Assembly: GCF_001633165.1 (NCBI RefSeq) | Contig: NZ_CP015418.1 | Coordinates: forward strand, 2,790,001-2,854,000 | Direction: 5' to 3' | Length of the DNA: 64,000 nt | Source of the DNA: Rhodovulum sulfidophilum DSM 1374 | Lineage (GTDB): Bacteria > Pseudomonadota > Alphaproteobacteria > Rhodobacterales > Rhodobacteraceae | Part shown: positions 3,977 through 37,864 of the stretch, piece by piece | Layout: each line of letters opens with the position of its first letter | How positions within the stretch are numbered: the first letter of the stretch is position 1 | Program-made: the position numbers and the translations under genes | The notes under the pieces: model-generated | The model's input: only the letters and a program-made list of their open reading frames with translations | Database searches by the model: none | What the model was told of the DNA's origin: nothing

Positions 3977-6169
3977 ATGTATGTTGCATTCTTCGGACTG
4001 GCGCATCGACCGTTCGGCCCCGCGCCATGCCAGGGGTCCCTGCATTGGACCGACCCGCATTGGCATGACTTCGAGCGCCTGCGCCTGGCGCTGATCGACG
4101 GCGCGCCTCTGGCGCTGGTGCTGGGCAGGCCCGGCACCGGCAAGACCACCTTTCTGCGCGCGCTCCTTCGCGACGAAACCCTGACCGACATCTTCCGGCC
4201 GGCCTTCCACACCAATCCCACCGGAGATGGCCCCACACTCCTGCGCTGGATCCTCTCGGCCTTCGGCGCCGAAGCGGGCGCGGCCGATCCCGACAGGCTC
4301 CTGGCCCGGGTCGGGACCGTGCTGGCCGAGATCCGCGCTGCCGGCCGGTTGCCGCTGCTGGCAATCGACGAGGCACAGGGTCTGTCCGCTGCCGGTCTTC
4401 AGATGCTCGACCGGGTGGCGTGCCCCCGGCAAGGCGCCCTGCAAGGCGAAGGTGCGGCCCTCCAGATCGTGCTGGCCGGTCTGCCCGATCTCGAACCGCA
4501 TCTCGAACAGAGCCATCCCTCGCGTCTCGGCCTGTCACGGGACAGCATGGTCCGGCTGCAGCCGATGACCGCGGCCGAAACCGCCGATTACATCCGCAGC
4601 CGGATCGTGGCTGCCGGAGGCGATGCCGATGGGCTTTTCGACCCCGGGGCGCTGGCGCTGATCCATGACCAGGCCCATGGCCTGCCGCGTCTGGTCAATA
4701 CGATCTGCGACCGTAGCCTGAACGCCGCCTTCGGCGCGGGCCGGCCCCGCCTCGATGGCGCTTTCATCCGCGAGGTGCTGGCCGAATGGCAGGAGGATAG
4801 CGGCGACCCCCTCTGCCTGTTGGAGTGCCCCGCCCCCTCGCCGCCGCGGGCGCCACAGACGGCCCCACCCGGCGCCCGCCCGCGCCCCGTTGCGCAGCCT
4901 CCGCCGCCCGACGCGGCCGCGGTCCCCTCCATCCCGCCACCGCCGATATCTGCGCCGCTTTCCGCGTCATCTTCCGTATCGGCTTCCGGGGCGGTCTCTG
5001 CGCCTGGGCCCTCACCCGCGCCGCCGCCGCGCCGCCGTCCGCGCGGCAGGCGGCTTCTGGCGGCCTCGACCGGCGCCGGGCTCGGCCTTGCGGCGGTCTT
5101 CGTCGGAGGCGCCCTGATCGTCGGCTTGCCGAGCGGGCCCGGAACGCCGATCGACGCGACCTCCCCCCGCCTGGCCGGTGCGGGCGCGGTTCCCGAAAGC
5201 CGTCGCGCGGCGCGGCTTTCGGATCGGTCGCAGGCGGCGGGGACGGTCCCCGGCGCAGGAAGCGCCGAAACAGGGTCCACGGAAACAGGCTCTGCGGCCG
5301 AGCGGCTGGCCCGGACCCGAACCAGGATCGAGGCGGCAGAGACCCGGCTTGCGGACACCCTGAGCGAGCTTGAGCGGCTCGCGGCACGGCTGCGCGACGC
5401 CACCAAAGAAACCGGCGCGGCCGAAGCCAGGCGCGACGCGGCGCGGGACGCGGCCAAGCGCGCCGCGGCCGACTTCGCGCAATTGCAGGACCGGATCGCC
5501 GAAGCGGAACTGCGCCTCGACGCGCTGGACCGACGGCTGGCCGAGGGCGACGCCGACCGGCTGACCGGATTGCAGGCCACCGCCGCGCCGCCCGCCCCCA
5601 AGCCCCGGTCTGATCCAGCCCCGGCGCCGCTCCCGGCCACCTCGCCGCTTGAGCTCGACGCCGCGTCGGCCGATCCACGGGTGGCGCAGCGCCAGTACCG
5701 GCATGCGCTCGGCAGCACCGATCCGCTTGATATCGCCATCGCCTATTCCCGGGCGGCGGTGAACGGGCAGAGCCGCGCCGCCTATTACCTCGGCCAGATC
5801 TACGAGGTCGGCGACGGCGTCGAGCGCGATATCGACACCGCGCGGCAATGGTACCGGATCGCCGCGGCCGAGGTGGCAGCGGCTCAGGTCAGGCTCGAGG
5901 ACCTGCCCGAAGCTCCCGCCGATCCCGACCGGGCCACGGCCCGGCCGCTGGCCTCAAGCCGGAGCGATGGCGTGATCGAACTGGTCTGGCAGGGAAGCGG
6001 TCCCTTCGTGGTCGAACTGGCCGCCGAGCCCGGCCCGCCCGCGGCCCGCTTCGCAACGGCTCTGACGGCGGCGCGCCTGACCCTGCCCGCGCACCCGTCC
6101 CTGCTGTGGTGGCGGATACGCGCCGGGCGCAGCGCCCCCACCGAGTGGCAGAGGATCGACCCGCGCTAG
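3977..6169 (+). CDS. ExeA-like AAA ATPase with coiled coil and Sel1 repeats
   Basis: A 730-aa multidomain protein. Residues 1-265 form an ExeA/GspA-like AAA ATPase: the FFGLAHRPF opening, Walker A GRPGTGKTT, Walker B LLAIDEAQ and the C-terminal GLPRLVNTICDRSL helix motif. A Pro/Ala/Ser-rich linker follows, then one transmembrane segment around residues 360-385, an Ala/Glu/Arg coiled coil (about 425-520) and a Sel1-like region near 570-640 (AAYYLGQIYEVGDG, ARQWYRIAA). Thus the ATPase is cytoplasmic and the C-terminus probably periplasmic. ExeA proteins help assemble secretins by acting on peptidoglycan; no secretin is nearby. The start is the first ATG in frame; its ribosome site is weak. Function beyond domains is inferred. 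Confidence 0.82.
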   Translation: MYVAFFGLAHRPFGPAPCQGSLHWTDPHWHDFERLRLALIDGAPLALVLGRPGTGKTTFLRALLRDETLTDIFRPAFHTNPTGDGPTLLRWILSAFGAEAGAADPDRLLARVGTVLAEIRAAGRLPLLAIDEAQGLSAAGLQMLDRVACPRQGALQGEGAALQIVLAGLPDLEPHLEQSHPSRLGLSRDSMVRLQPMTAAETADYIRSRIVAAGGDADGLFDPGALALIHDQAHGLPRLVNTICDRSLNAAFGAGRPRLDGAFIREVLAEWQEDSGDPLCLLECPAPSPPRAPQTAPPGARPRPVAQPPPPDAAAVPSIPPPPISAPLSASSSVSASGAVSAPGPSPAPPPRRRPRGRRLLAASTGAGLGLAAVFVGGALIVGLPSGPGTPIDATSPRLAGAGAVPESRRAARLSDRSQAAGTVPGAGSAETGSTETGSAAERLARTRTRIEAAETRLADTLSELERLAARLRDATKETGAAEARRDAARDAAKRAAADFAQLQDRIAEAELRLDALDRRLAEGDADRLTGLQATAAPPAPKPRSDPAPAPLPATSPLELDAASADPRVAQRQYRHALGSTDPLDIAIAYSRAAVNGQSRAAYYLGQIYEVGDGVERDIDTARQWYRIAAAEVAAAQVRLEDLPEAPADPDRATARPLASSRSDGVIELVWQGSGPFVVELAAEPGPPAARFATALTAARLTLPAHPSLLWWRIRAGRSAPTEWQRIDPR

Positions 6170-30854: not shown

Positions 30855-32345
<1,491 letters not shown>

Positions 32346-32536: not shown

Positions 32537-32815
32537 TCAGCAGCAGGTCTGTTCGAGATCGTAGAGCAGATCTTCGGCGGCGCTGTCGCCCAGTTCCTCG
32601 AAGAAGGCCGAGAGGCTGTTCACCTGGCTGCCCACGAAATGCAGGTTGTCATTGCCCATGCGGGCCTTCTCGGCGAGCTTCTGCTCGAAATAGCCGACCC
32701 AGCGGGACTGGCTTTCGGCCATATGCGCCGCCAGCATCGCCATCAGGCGGTCGGCCTTGCGGTCGCACTCGATCCCGCAGAAGCTCACGTAACGGTCGGG
32801 GGTCTGGTCGGTCAT
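32537..32815 (-). CDS. cowN: N2-fixation-sustaining protein CowN
   Basis: A 92-aa protein with the CowN family pattern: the opening DRYVSFCGIECD, a conserved histidine (MLAAHM), W.GYFEQKL, a central segment around SQVNSLSAFFEELGD and a terminal LEQTCC. CowN lets diazotrophs fix nitrogen when CO is present by protecting Mo-nitrogenase. A second ATG two codons upstream (32821) is possible; the ATG at 32815 has AGGAG at the better spacing. Immediately upstream lies a CooA-like CO sensor gene with a CooA-type operator, so expression is expected to be induced by CO. No nitrogenase genes are in the window. Confidence 0.9.
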   Translation of the reverse strand: MTDQTPDRYVSFCGIECDRKADRLMAMLAAHMAESQSRWVGYFEQKLAEKARMGNDNLHFVGSQVNSLSAFFEELGDSAAEDLLYDLEQTCC

Positions 32816-32862
32816 GGCCATGCGCTCCTCTTCCGGCCCGGAGGTCGCCCGGGGACCGGGTG

Positions 32863-32905
32863 CTGATAGGCGATGGCGGCGAGCGGTTCTGTCAGCCGGC
32901 CGACA
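32863..32905 (-). promoter_or_regulatory. CooA-type operator and promoter for cowN
   Basis: On the plus strand 32890-32905 reads TGTCA-GCCGGC-CGACA, exactly the TGTCR-N6-YGACA dyad bound by CooA. It covers the stop codon of the CooA-like gene. Towards cowN a TATCAG -10-like hexamer lies at 32863-32868. That would place transcription start near 32856, about 41 bp from the dyad centre, the spacing of CRP class II activation and of known CooA promoters. The match is seen in the sequence; activity is inferred. Confidence 0.7.
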
Positions 32906-33545
32906 GGTCGACCATGGCCTCGAGCCGGGCGATGTCGAGAAGCCTCAGATGGCGGCGGTCCGGGCGGGCCAGCACGCCCTCGCGGATCAGCCGGTTGATC
33001 AGGGTCGAGAGCGTCTGCCGCGAGGTGCCGAGCGCCGCGGCGAGGGATTCGGTGCTGTCGATCTGCCGGATCAGATCGCTATTTTGCAGGGCGCGTTCGT
33101 TCAGCAGGAACCGCGCGAAGCGCGACTCGACCGGCCGGAAGGCGAGATCCTCGATCAGGTTCAGCGCGCCGTGCAGAAGCTGGCCCACCTCGCGAAAGGC
33201 GGCGAGGCCAAGCGCGGGCTGGCGGGTCAGCAGCGCCAGCATCTCGCCGACCGGCCAGGAGATCACGGTGCAGGGGCTGACCGCCTCGACCCAGGCCCGG
33301 GTATGGGTGACATAGGCGCCGCCCGGGCGCAGGTAGCCGATGGTCAGCGCGCGCGCCGCGCCGTTCAGGCAGATCCGGGCAAGCCCCTCGTCCAGAACGA
33401 AAAGCCGGTCGGGGCCCTTTCCATCGCCGTATCCGTCCACGTCGCCGGGCCGCGCGATGGCCGCGCCCGGCTCGAACCGGCGGCGGAGCCCGCCGGGCAG
33501 CTCGCCGATCCAGGCGGAATGGGGACATGTGGCGACATCCTGCAT
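32892..33545 (-). CDS. CooA-like CRP/FNR-family CO sensor
   Basis: A 217-aa CRP/FNR-type regulator. The N-terminal beta-roll domain (1-120) includes LTIGYLRPGGAYVTHTRAWV, which aligns with the CooA haem loop: His81 matches the ferrous haem ligand His77 of Rhodospirillum CooA, while Val79 replaces its redox ligand Cys75. The C-helix keeps a glycine (EVGQLL) where CooA has Gly117, and the hinge reads NLIEDLAFRPVESR. The C-terminal helix-turn-helix is GTSRQTLSTLINRLI, close to CooA. It precedes cowN by 70 bp with a CooA-type operator between them. A CO-sensing haem activator is the best inference; the symbol is withheld pending proof. Confidence 0.82.
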   Translation of the reverse strand: MQDVATCPHSAWIGELPGGLRRRFEPGAAIARPGDVDGYGDGKGPDRLFVLDEGLARICLNGAARALTIGYLRPGGAYVTHTRAWVEAVSPCTVISWPVGEMLALLTRQPALGLAAFREVGQLLHGALNLIEDLAFRPVESRFARFLLNERALQNSDLIRQIDSTESLAAALGTSRQTLSTLINRLIREGVLARPDRRHLRLLDIARLEAMVDLSAG

Positions 33546-33588: not shown

Positions 33589-34566
33589 TCAGGCGCACGC
33601 GGCATTGGTCTGCGCCGCGAGCCGGCCTTTTGCCCAAAGCTGCATCACGAAAACGAGGATCGGCGGAATTGCCAGCGTCGCCGCGACCAGCGCGATGCCG
33701 CCCGCGATGCGGAAGGCCTCGCCCGGGGCCTGACCCTCGAGCGCCGCGGCCAGCGCCAGCATCAGGCTTGCGAAGGCCGCCATCGGAAAGCTCAGCGCGC
33801 CCCAGAGCGGCGAGACCCCCGCCGCCAGCAGCCAGCGCGCCGATACCAGCAGAGCCGCCAGCAGCGCCACCGCGACCGCCGCCGCAGCCAGCGCAAGCGG
33901 CATCAGGCCCAGCGATGCGGCCACGCTGCCGATCAGGCAGGCCGGGGCCAGATGGATCGCCAGCAGCGGGCGCAGCGGCGCGGGCAGCCTCTGGCGCAGC
34001 ATCTGTACGAGGCTCGCCGCCCAGATCGCCAGCGCGACGCCGGTCGTTGCGTAAAGCAGGACGGTGGCCAGCCCCGTATGGCCAAGCGGCACGGCGGAAA
34101 GACAGGCGAGGATGAAGCCCACGAAATGCAGGTGCCAGACCGGCGTGACCCGGCGTTGTTCGGCCGGGCCGGTGGCGAAAAGCCATAGCAGCAGCCCCAC
34201 CAGCCCGGCCTGCAGCAAAAGCCCCGCCCAGAGCAGGATCTCGGCCAGCGCCGGGATCAGCGGTACCAGCGCCGCCGACAGCAGATATACCGACAGCACC
34301 GCCGCCGAGAGCCCGGCCCGGCCCGGCAGGACCCGCAGATCCTCGGCCACGACCTTCGGGCGACGCCAGAGCTTCAGCCCGTAAGCCACTATGATAAAAA
34401 TAAAAAGCATGGTGATTGCACCAAGGATCAGATCGCCCGCGGCCGAGGGCATCCCGAAGGGGTCTGCCGCCCGCCGCCAGGCAAGCCCGAGCCCCAAGGC
34501 GCCCAGGACCGGGGGGAAGATGGCGGGCGGGGTCTGGCTGCCGAAACGCGGGCGCGGGGCGAACAT
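33589..34566 (-). CDS. TehA/SLAC1-type anion channel family protein
   Basis: A 325-aa membrane protein with about ten hydrophobic helices and the family opening PPAIFPPVLGALGLGLAWR. TehA/SLAC1 proteins are anion channels or carriers for malate, tellurite or nitrate-like ions. The ATG at 34566 has AAGGAGA ten bases upstream and leaves the conserved motif near the N-terminus; a start 13 codons upstream is less likely. It ends 43 bp before the CooA-like gene, so it may share a transcript with it. The ion carried cannot be deduced. Confidence 0.82.
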   Translation of the reverse strand: MFAPRPRFGSQTPPAIFPPVLGALGLGLAWRRAADPFGMPSAAGDLILGAITMLFIFIIVAYGLKLWRRPKVVAEDLRVLPGRAGLSAAVLSVYLLSAALVPLIPALAEILLWAGLLLQAGLVGLLLWLFATGPAEQRRVTPVWHLHFVGFILACLSAVPLGHTGLATVLLYATTGVALAIWAASLVQMLRQRLPAPLRPLLAIHLAPACLIGSVAASLGLMPLALAAAAVAVALLAALLVSARWLLAAGVSPLWGALSFPMAAFASLMLALAAALEGQAPGEAFRIAGGIALVAATLAIPPILVFVMQLWAKGRLAAQTNAACA

Positions 34567-34712
34567 CGGACCGTCTCTCCTTGTTGTGCGGCTCCGATGT
34601 GCCATGGCGGGCCGCTCCGGGCAAGCGCATCGCCCGGGCGCCAGTTTTTGCTTTACCGATGCGCGCGGCCGGTTACTCTCGATCGGACAGGGAGATCAGG
34701 GAGGATCCACCG

Positions 34713-35717
34713 ATGAAAGCTGCGATCGGCGCCATGACGCTGGGCGCTTTCGGCTGCTGTCTGGCGGGCGAGGCGCTGGCCGAGACCTGGAATGTCTCGC
34801 TCTGGGGCAAGCGGCGCGCATTCACCGAGAATGTCGAGAAGCTGGCCGAGCTGGTCAGCGAGAAGACCGGCGGTGAATTCACGCTGTCGCTGTCTTATGG
34901 CGGGCTGTCGAAAAGCACCGAAAACCTCGACGGCATCGAGATCGGCGCCTTCGAGATGGCGCAGATCTGCGCCGGCTATCACCGCGACAAGAACCCGACG
35001 CTGACCGTGCTGGAGCTGCCCTTCCTCGGCGTCGACAGCCTGGAACAGGAACGCGACCTGTCGATGGCGCTGTACCGGCATCCGGCGGTCGAGGCCGATC
35101 TGGCGCGCTGGAACGCGACCCTGCTGATGCCGACACCGATGCCGCAATACAATTTCGTGGGCGTCGGCGCGCCGCCCCGGAGCCTTGCCGATTTCAAGGG
35201 CATGACCGTGCGCGCAACCGGCGGTATCGGCGAGGCGATGGAGATCGTCGGCGCGGTGCCGACCTCGATGGGTGCGACCGAGGTGCGCCAGGCGCTTGAT
35301 TCCGGCGTGGTCAAGGCGGTCTCCTTCGCGCCGCATGCGCATATGTCCTTCGGCACCATCGACACCGGCAGCTGGTGGACGACGAACCTCAACCCCGGCA
35401 CGGTCAACTGCCCGGTCGTGGTCAACAGCGACGCGCTGGCAGCGCTGTCCGAGGACCATCGCGCGGCCCTTCTGGGCTCGGTCGACGAGGCGCTGGCGCA
35501 TTACATCGATTATTACAACAGCGAGACGATGTCGCGCTGGGGCCCGGCGCTTGACGAGCGCGGGATCGAGCGGATCACCTTCGCGCCCGAGGCGATGGCC
35601 GAGTTCCGCGAGGCGGCGGCAGGCCCGGTGGCCACGGCCTGGATCGAGGAGATGAGCGCACGCGGCCTGCCCGCGCAGGAGCTTTACGACAGCGTGACCG
35701 GGCAGATCGGACAGTAG
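34713..35717 (+). CDS. TRAP transporter substrate-binding protein, DctP type
   Basis: A 334-aa periplasmic binding protein with a cleavable signal peptide (residues 1-22, ending ALA). The carboxylate-anchoring arginine lies in MTVRATGGIGEAM near residue 165, followed by PTSMGATEVRQALDSGVVKAV, both typical of DctP proteins. GGAGG precedes the chosen ATG; upstream in-frame starts lack a signal sequence. It is followed by a stem-loop and then DctQ and DctM genes. The substrate is a small carboxylic acid of unknown type. Confidence 0.92.
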   Translation: MKAAIGAMTLGAFGCCLAGEALAETWNVSLWGKRRAFTENVEKLAELVSEKTGGEFTLSLSYGGLSKSTENLDGIEIGAFEMAQICAGYHRDKNPTLTVLELPFLGVDSLEQERDLSMALYRHPAVEADLARWNATLLMPTPMPQYNFVGVGAPPRSLADFKGMTVRATGGIGEAMEIVGAVPTSMGATEVRQALDSGVVKAVSFAPHAHMSFGTIDTGSWWTTNLNPGTVNCPVVVNSDALAALSEDHRAALLGSVDEALAHYIDYYNSETMSRWGPALDERGIERITFAPEAMAEFREAAAGPVATAWIEEMSARGLPAQELYDSVTGQIGQ

Positions 35718-35730
35718 TCCCCCGCCCGGC

Positions 35731-35759
35731 CCCGAAACTGATCCGGAAACAGGTTCGGG
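35731..35759 (+). other. Intercistronic stem-loop after the TRAP binding-protein gene
   Basis: CCCGAAACTG (35731-35740) pairs with CAGGTTCGGG (35750-35759), ten positions with one mismatch and a 9-nt loop, 13 bp after the stop. No T tract follows, so message stabilisation or partial termination before dctQ is likely. Confidence 0.5.
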
Positions 35760-35821
35760 ACGGGCGCCCCCGGCCCGGCCCAAGCCACAGCCCGCCCTGA
35801 GAACCTGCGAGGATACCGCCC

Positions 35822-36454
35822 ATGGCCATCCATGCCCCGGTGCTGGAGGATGACAGCCCGCTCTCGCGGCTCGATCGCGGGCTTTACCGGCTTGAACGCC
35901 AGCTTGCGCTGGTCGCCGGGCTCACCGTCTTCGTCTTGATGCTGCTGGCGGTGATTTCGGTCGGCGGGCGACATTTCTTCAACCAGCCGCTGCCCGGCTC
36001 TGTCGACTGGATCCAGCAGGGCATGCCGCTGATCGCCTTTCTGGGTATCGCCTATACCCAGAGGGATGGCGGCCATATCCGGATGGATATCCTTGTCTCG
36101 CGGCTGTCGGGCCGGGCCCTGTGGGCGGCCGAGACGGTGACGACGCTGGCGATGCTGGTTGTCATGGCGCTGCTGGTCTGGGGCAGTTTCGCGCATTTCC
36201 AGCGCAGCTTCGACTGGGGCGCGCCGCTCTTCAGCCGGGACAGCTCGATCGACATCAACCTGCCGCTCTGGCCCGCCAAGCTGCTGGCGCCGGTCGCCTT
36301 CTCGGTCCTGTGCCTGCGGCTTGCGCTTCAGCTCTGGGGCTATGGCCGGGCCTTCCTGCTGGGGCTGAGCGCCCCGGTGGCGGTGCCGCTGGTGGTGTCG
36401 GTGGCCGATCAGGCGGCGTCCGAGGCGACCCATGTCTCGGGCGCGGACGACTAG
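35822..36454 (+). CDS. TRAP transporter small permease, DctQ type
   Basis: A 210-aa membrane protein with four predicted helices (about residues 30-55, 65-85, 105-130 and 150-175). The DctQ hallmark is visible as VGGRHFFNQPLPGSVDWIQQGMP followed by GIAYTQRDGGHIRMDI. It pairs with DctM to form the transporter membrane unit. GAGGA precedes the ATG. It lies 104 bp after the binding-protein gene and 9 bp before dctM. Confidence 0.92.
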   Translation: MAIHAPVLEDDSPLSRLDRGLYRLERQLALVAGLTVFVLMLLAVISVGGRHFFNQPLPGSVDWIQQGMPLIAFLGIAYTQRDGGHIRMDILVSRLSGRALWAAETVTTLAMLVVMALLVWGSFAHFQRSFDWGAPLFSRDSSIDINLPLWPAKLLAPVAFSVLCLRLALQLWGYGRAFLLGLSAPVAVPLVVSVADQAASEATHVSGADD

Positions 36455-36463
36455 GAGGCTGCC

Positions 36464-37864
36464 ATGGATCCGATCCAGATCGGCCTCGCGGTCACAGGGT
36501 TTCTTTTCGTCACGGTCCTGCTGGGCATGCGGGTGGGCTTTGCCGCCGCGCTGGCGGGGCTGGTCGGGCTGGTCTGGATCTTCTGGTCGAAGAAGGGCTA
36601 TGATCCGGAGGCCTTCGGCTGGGCGCTGACGGTCGCGGTCAAGACCGCAGGCCAGGTGCCGCATTCGAAGGTGGCAAGCCAGGCGCTGAGCCTGATCCCG
36701 ACCTTCATCCTGATCGGCTATCTGGCCTATTATGCGGGGCTCACCCGGGCGCTGTTCGATGCGGCGAAGAAATGGTTCGGCTGGCTGCCGGGCGGGCTTG
36801 CGGTCTCGACCGTCTTTGCCACGGCGGGCTTTGCCGCGGTGTCGGGCGCCTCGGTCGCGACCTCGGCCGTCTTCGCCCGGATCGCCATCCCCGAGATGCT
36901 GAAGATCGGCTATGAAAAGCGCTTTGCCGCGGGCGTCGTCGCGGCGGGCGGCACGCTGGCCAGCCTGATCCCGCCCTCGGCCATCCTTGTCATCTATGCC
37001 ATCATCGTCGAGCAGGATGTGGGCAAGCTGCTGCTGGCGGGCTTCGTGCCGGGCATGGTCTCGGCCTGCATCTATGCGCTTCTGATCGTCGCGATGGCGC
37101 TGGCCCTGCCCCGCTTCGGCCCGGCCGTCCGGGGCTTCAGCTGGGGCGAGCGGCTGCGCGCCCTGCCCAAGGCGCTGCCGATCCTCTTCGTGGTCTGGAC
37201 CATCGTCTTCTTCGTCTACAACCCGTTCGGCGGAGATGCCTGGGGCACGCCAACCGAGGGCGGAGCCATCGGCGCCTTCGTGGTCTTCCTGATGGCACTG
37301 GCGCACGGGATGCGCTGGCCGCAATTCAAGGACGCGCTGCTAGAGACCGCCAAGCTCTCGGCGATGATCTTCACCATCATCTGGGGGGTGCTGATCTATG
37401 TCCGCTTTCTGGGCTTCGCTGATCTGCCGGGCGCCTTTGCCGACTGGATCGCCGGGCTGTCCCACCCGCCGCTGCTGACGCTGGTGATGATCCTGCTGGC
37501 CTATGCGGTGCTGGGCATGTTCATGGATGCGATCGGGATGCTGCTCTTGACGCTGCCGGTCGTGTTTCCGGCGGTGATGGCGCTGAACGGGGGCGAATAT
37601 GTATCGGCCGCGGACAGCGCCTTCGGCATGTCGGGGCCGATGTGCGCGATCTGGTTCGGCATCCTCGTCGTCAAGATGGCCGAGCTTTGCCTGATCACGC
37701 CGCCGATCGGGCTGAACTGCTTCGTGGTGGCCGGGGTCCGCGACGATCTGACGGTTCAGGACGTCTTTCGCGGCGTCGCACCCTTCTTCCTGGCCGATGC
37801 CATCACCATCGCGGTGCTGATCGCGGTGCCGGGCATCGTGCTGTGGCTGCCGGGCCTCGCCTGA
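36464..37864 (+). CDS. TRAP transporter large permease, DctM type
   Basis: A 466-aa polytopic protein with about 12-13 helices. It contains the DctM glycine-rich motifs FAAVSGASVATSAVFARIAIPEM and GGTLASLIPPSAILVIYAI, and the later GMFMDAIGMLLLTLPVVFP and LCLITPPIGLN. It drives sodium-coupled uptake with the DctP and DctQ partners encoded just upstream. AGGAGG stands six bases before the ATG. A convergent lipoprotein gene ends 12 bp after the stop. Confidence 0.94.
   Translation: MDPIQIGLAVTGFLFVTVLLGMRVGFAAALAGLVGLVWIFWSKKGYDPEAFGWALTVAVKTAGQVPHSKVASQALSLIPTFILIGYLAYYAGLTRALFDAAKKWFGWLPGGLAVSTVFATAGFAAVSGASVATSAVFARIAIPEMLKIGYEKRFAAGVVAAGGTLASLIPPSAILVIYAIIVEQDVGKLLLAGFVPGMVSACIYALLIVAMALALPRFGPAVRGFSWGERLRALPKALPILFVVWTIVFFVYNPFGGDAWGTPTEGGAIGAFVVFLMALAHGMRWPQFKDALLETAKLSAMIFTIIWGVLIYVRFLGFADLPGAFADWIAGLSHPPLLTLVMILLAYAVLGMFMDAIGMLLLTLPVVFPAVMALNGGEYVSAADSAFGMSGPMCAIWFGILVVKMAELCLITPPIGLNCFVVAGVRDDLTVQDVFRGVAPFFLADAITIAVLIAVPGIVLWLPGLA

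Follow-up and report, generated by a model that had tools for sequence, protein, structure and literature searches.

Does the regulator gene that precedes cowN in this Rhodovulum genome switch cowN on in response to CO? CowN sustains nitrogenase under CO, according to the accessible text of PMC8047169. In the window, which is the whole stretch of 64,000 nucleotides analysed, transcription on the minus strand runs from a TDT/SLAC1 transporter gene (33589-34605, −), lying 43 bp from the next gene, through a putative cooA-type CO/haem-sensor regulator gene of the CRP/FNR family, assigned by sequence comparison (32892-33545, −), to cowN, encoding the nitrogenase CO-protection protein (32537-32821, −), and guaB, the IMP dehydrogenase gene (30855-32303, −). 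A divergent transporter set, assigned as TRAP-type by eye, occupies 34716-37864. CowN matches PF20543 with 115 bits (cut-off 27) and the equivalog model NF033689 with 109 bits (cut-off 48), both over the full profile length. Homologues begin at its second in-frame ATG, at 32815, which suits them better than the first and is the probable start.

We consider it very probable that cooA and cowN constitute a two-gene CO-response unit, in which CooA, once it carries CO, activates cowN by binding at a class II position and CowN protects nitrogenase. CooA control of cowN is supported by comparison, namely by dyad conservation, −10 spacing and the pattern of gene loss. In the unit, placed between the TDT/SLAC1 gene and guaB, a CooA dimer would bind CO through a haem coordinated by His81 and thereby take its DNA-binding form, sit on the dyad at 32890-32905 with its centre near −41.5, and recruit σ70 RNA polymerase in class II fashion to the −10 element at 32868-32863. 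cowN would then be transcribed when CO is present, and CowN would keep Mo-nitrogenase working under CO. For this organism, we infer that the regulator binds haem, CO and DNA, that CO induces cowN, and that CowN protects nitrogenase.

The initial annotation described the regulator as a CooA-like sensor, and profile placement agrees. Among PDB proteins, CooA is much the nearest, scoring 113 bits where the best non-CooA regulator reaches 54, and on sequence the protein appears clearly placed with CooA. The haem-ligand histidine is His81 in the motif VTHTR, equivalent to His77 of Rhodospirillum rubrum CooA (RrCooA), and is invariant in 9/9 Rhodovulum orthologues. The recognition-helix motif RQT..S is retained as well. 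A structural search supported the CRP/FNR fold and did not by itself single out CooA (model pLDDT 72.9, pTM 0.50). The N-termini of the orthologues vary and their start codons are uncertain, which bears on the N-terminal amine as the ligand displaced by CO.

It is conceivable that the regulator responds to a different signal, such as NO or redox state, with the same or another cofactor. The cysteine that serves as the ferric-state ligand (Cys75 in RrCooA, also present in C. hydrogenoformans CooA) is replaced by Val79 in 9/9 Rhodovulum orthologues, and the Pfam cNMP domain scores under its cut-off in the regulator. However, both R. capsulatus CooAs also have Val at the Cys75 position, with a CO response reported in cited work, so the cysteine was not treated as defining CooA. 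With the profile placement being clear, the haem-His motif THTR being common to the regulator and C. hydrogenoformans CooA, and the regulator gene adjoining a CO-protection gene, sensing of a non-CO signal is very unlikely, and CO remains the preferred signal.

The putative operator is a CooA-type dyad at 32890-32905. It reads TGTCAGCCGGCCGACA on the plus strand, which is TGTCA-N6-CGACA, and TGTCGGCCGGCTGACA on the minus strand towards cowN. The dyad overlaps the stop codon of cooA, as the regulator's TGA (32894-32892) makes up dyad positions 12-14; 11 of the 16 dyad positions are coding and 3 are the stop codon. The initial annotation had given both the coordinates and the overlap correctly. 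Its term ‘exact CooA box’ suggests more specificity than the motif has, because the NifA-type sites at nifE in the genus have the same half-sites. By a first-order model, the strict box is expected 1.3e-4 times in 160 bp and 0.05 times in the 64-kb window, and the relaxed form TGTC-N8-GACA occurs once in the window against 0.4 expected. Genome-wide, the strict pattern occurs 5 times, compared with 0 for a reversed-pattern control, and TGTCR-N6-YGACA has 10 sites against 4 for the control, and 9 against 7 in the relative G008. The motif alone is not rare; its position and conservation bear the claim.

Conservation was examined in a genus set of 16 Rhodovulum-group genomes, including G010, a Rhodobacteraceae MAG (L051). 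The Rhodovulum loci L040-L046 and L048-L050, together with L051, are identical around cowN to 11 genomes of the set. cowN is found in 15/16 genomes, all 15 with nifD above cut-off, and the sixteenth, G004, has neither cowN nor nifD above cut-off. cooA adjoins cowN in 9 of the 15 cowN-bearing genomes; the cooA profile at E 1e-15 finds no match in the other six or in G004. Wherever cooA is linked in the genus (9/9), TGTC-N8-GACA lies in frame on the cooA stop. Within 300 bp of cowN, the same pattern is absent in 6/6 cooA-less genus genomes; among these, G007 carries a version with one mismatch. Because cooA and the dyad physically overlap, their joint absence is not independent evidence.

Beyond the genus, the dyad is on the cooA stop in 8/8 loci, from Phaeovulum vinaykumarii, Afifella marina, R. 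capsulatus (two loci), Mangrovicoccus, Cereibacter changlensis, L038 and a megaplasmid of Rhodobacter sp. CZR27. Conservation upstream of cowN in related genomes, a check suggested with the initial annotation, was thus seen at every linked cooA-cowN locus examined: the dyad has an in-frame cooA TGA at positions 12-14 in 17/17, with L038 counted despite its partial cooA. At L038 (1164-1432) a cooA remnant matches only in residues 129-217, and the dyad on its stop is intact before cowN; the sensor domain seems to be missing. cowN itself occurs in 5 of 394 sampled genomes of the family, including the window's genome and G003.

Since most of the dyad is coding or stop codon, it could be conserved only as code for the regulator C-terminus (L/V-S-x-G/S/V-stop) rather than as an operator. 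This is extremely improbable. The non-coding end of the dyad, CA, and the G that follows it are kept in 16/16 aligned loci, and the half-sites stay intact where the encoded residues differ (L to V, G to S or V). Moreover, a dyad is found 65-70 bp before cowN in R. maris, R. aestuarii and Rhodobacter sp. TJ_12, where no cooA is alongside.

These three free-standing loci (L056, Rhodobacter maris; L057, Rhodobacter sp. TJ_12; L058, R. aestuarii) also have a strong σ54 core (10/11; 0/100 shuffles) 135-140 bp before cowN, with the dyad downstream of the core. TJ_12 has a CooA-like gene elsewhere in its genome with the His motif kept, R. aestuarii has only a weak CooA hit in which the His motif is absent by eye, and no CooA hit was found in the R. 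maris genome at E 1e-10. Beside cowN of Neiella holothuriorum, neither cooA nor TGTC-N8-GACA was found.

The −10-like hexamer TATCAG lies at 32868-32863 on the minus strand. A distance of 29.5 bases separates its first T from the dyad centre; with this T taken as −12, the centre falls at −41.5. This agrees with the class II spacing proposed in the initial annotation. In a dyad-anchored alignment of 16 linked loci, an invariant G follows the dyad, and CTA appears about 21 bases further on. CTA at +21 (±1) after the box was found in 11/14 loci, which 0/5000 shuffles matched at any offset; it is absent in L007, L038 and L059. This 14-locus test omits L014 and L054 as near-copies and also leaves aside the free-standing dyads of L056-L058. 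L132, also outside the test, has CTAT at +21 by eye.

The dyad fits another consensus too, TGT-N10-ACA of NifA. It could therefore be chiefly a NifA upstream activator site, in which case nitrogen status rather than CO would set cowN expression, and CooA would be secondary. At nifE promoters of the genus, TGTC-N8-GACA stands ahead of a σ54 core in 13 of the 14 genomes examined, whether cooA is present or not, so the motif alone cannot separate CooA from NifA. An overlapping CooA/NifA site and NifA-dependent cowN have also been described for G. diazotrophicus in the accessible part of PMC8047169. On the other hand, the σ54 core is absent at cowN: in 14 loci with linked cooA, the best match covers 4-8 of 11 positions, a score attained by 11 or more of 100 shuffles in every case. 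At the window's own cowN promoter, the best −24/−12 element (GG-N10-GC) scores 5/11 with 90/100 shuffles as good, compared with 10/11 at nifH and nifE. What is conserved at cowN instead is the −10 at class II spacing. Furthermore, the dyad is missing at cowN in 6/6 cooA-less genomes, although the nifE site is kept in 5 of those 6. Promoter anatomy and the gene-loss pattern thus appear to favour CooA at cowN, and predominant NifA control is improbable.

In the nifE survey, the identity of nifE in the window's genome was given by TIGR01283 (593 bits against cut-off 505), and in the other 13 genomes nifE was taken as the position of the second-best match to the nifD model; G004, with no such gene match, and G013, where it falls at a contig start, were omitted from the count. 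The site in the window's genome, TGTCGGAGACCCGACA at G000:C1:3217132-3217147 (L064 and L118, the nifE promoters being L118-L131), is a NifA-type site before a σ54 core and fits the CooA consensus too. A nifE box was considered as a CooA site and read as a NifA site instead, being kept in 5/6 of the cooA-less genomes examined. The base before GACA is C in 12/14 nifE sites, compared with T in 15/15 linked cowN boxes, in which, however, the cooA stop codon begins with this T.

As the nifE sites are mostly TGTCG-N6-CGACA and fit the CooA consensus, CooA carrying CO could bind at nif activator sites. We regard it as unlikely that a single operator code serves both CooA and NifA in the genus, with mutual occupancy of nif and cowN sites. 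If it did, CO would directly tune nif transcription besides switching on cowN. A literature search on CooA-type sites at nif promoters yielded only PMC8047169, and the accessible part of PMC4999443, on comparative NifA regulation in Alphaproteobacteria, makes no mention of CooA or cowN.

NifA might also act on cooA itself. In R. capsulatus, cooA is reported to be activated by NifA and lies near nifHDK. Upstream of cooA in 12 loci (600 bp) and in the window (1500 bp), a scan for a σ54 core of at least 9/11 found one only in Mangrovicoccus. This negative is uninformative, since the same scan finds none in R. capsulatus.

How cooA came to be present in some relatives was addressed with a tree of the rpoA region of the 16 genomes, on which the cooA label needs 4 changes, 3 of them forced by well-supported branches. 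The sister species R. steppense (G012), which has cooA, and R. tesquicola (G014), which lacks it, differ along the entire segment that starts directly behind TDT and ends at the beginning of cowN. Because linked cooA occurs in several other genera, repeated loss of cooA would be a simpler reading than gain. As the operator lies within the stop codon of the regulator gene, the site comes and goes with the regulator. In cooA-less R. bhavnagarense (L050, about 4879-4903), a long inverted repeat, TATGAAAAATCGCCGATTTTTCATA, was seen upstream of cowN.

None of the 16 genus genomes matches the CooS model, so CooA probably serves nitrogenase protection rather than anaerobic CO metabolism. The TDT gene adjoins cowN or cooA in 14/15 cowN genomes, and in G004, where the pair is lacking, TDT is followed by guaB about 85 bp on. 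A place for the TDT/SLAC1 gene in the CO unit was rejected, as TDT still adjoins guaB in G004, which has neither cowN nor an above-cut-off nifD; judged from gene order, TDT is taken as a resident neighbour outside the unit.

Is cowN the only target? G008 has five of the genome's 10 relaxed boxes at corresponding positions: those at cowN, at nifE, in a SIR2-like gene, before an acetate-CoA-ligase gene, and in one other intergenic region. The acetate-CoA-ligase box, a near-perfect palindrome TTGTCAAAAATTTGACAA, lies upstream of the gene near position 1501 of L061 (G000:C1:1128706) and at the same place in G008 (L067). The intergenic box TGTCGATTTGACGACA, near 1501 of L063 (G000:C1:2998508), is identical in G008 (L071), where the 3-kb locus is 84% alike; it is a possible further operator. 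The SIR2-like box, 5′ of nifH (G000:C1:3178737), was rejected as an operator because the sequence around it codes for a protein with a SIR2-like domain. Because the acetate-CoA-ligase and intergenic boxes are also shared with G008, a single-target CooA regulon is not proven, and the ‘self-contained’ switch of the initial annotation stands only as adjacency of cooA and cowN.

Another CO regulator, RcoM (PAS-LytTR), was looked for by its LytTR domain, which has no match in the window's genome. RcoM replacing CooA in the cooA-less genomes was rejected: of the 12 LytTR matches, in 8/16 genomes, two were scanned with Pfam and gave one MHYT-LytTR and one LytTR only, with no PAS, and the others were inspected by eye. 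Five Rhodovulum genomes (L103-L107) have one LytTR protein type, in which the scanned L105 is MHYT plus LytTR, an architecture resembling that of CoxC-type regulators of CO oxidation.

The cooA-cowN arrangement has been described before, in Rhodobacter capsulatus and Gluconacetobacter diazotrophicus, and Rhodovulum is a further example. The R. capsulatus cooA-cowN pair is reportedly the subject of work by Hoffmann and colleagues (Hoffmann et al. 2014 J Bacteriol). As in the window, R. capsulatus has linked cooA and cowN, the dyad TGTCATCCGGCTGACA on the cooA stop (L053 and L054), Val at the Cys75 position and, in L053, the CTA −10-like element; unlike in the window, there is no TDT or guaB match within the 5-kb flanks of cooA-cowN. 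R. rubrum CooA, of the same family and with the haem His, binds a TGTCA-N6-CGACA type site. Its Cys75 is Val in Rhodovulum, and CooS is unmatched in the genus. In R. rubrum, unlike in the window, cooA belongs to a cluster with CO dehydrogenase genes, and cowN has rcoM as its neighbour, according to the accessible text of PMC4257681.

The same text, which describes no operator for this pair, states that cooA adjoins cowN in Rubrivivax gelatinosus CBS, as in the window, and that cowN and CooA also occur in relatives without anaerobic CO metabolism. G. diazotrophicus is described, in the accessible part of PMC8047169, which also cites the R. capsulatus work, as having the same arrangement in algH-cooA-cowN. 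Its CooA site, tGTCg-N6-tGACa, is about 60 bp upstream of cowN, much like the one in the window, and overlaps TGT-N10-ACA according to its authors; algH and a second CooA site are differences from the window. No literature combining Rhodovulum, carbon monoxide and CooA was found, and the accessible parts of PMC9603854 and PMC12903952 added nothing on mechanism.

Rhodovulum, a genus in which CooS was not found, thus joins the bacteria that seem to guard nitrogenase from CO via a dedicated CooA. Its 9 genomes with cooA and 6 without offer a natural comparison between CO-inducible and other control of cowN. Two observations go beyond the initial annotation: the operator is embedded in the regulator stop codon across genera, and TGTC-N8-GACA is common to CooA and nifE NifA-type sites, a caution that this motif is ambiguous when CooA or NifA regulons are predicted.
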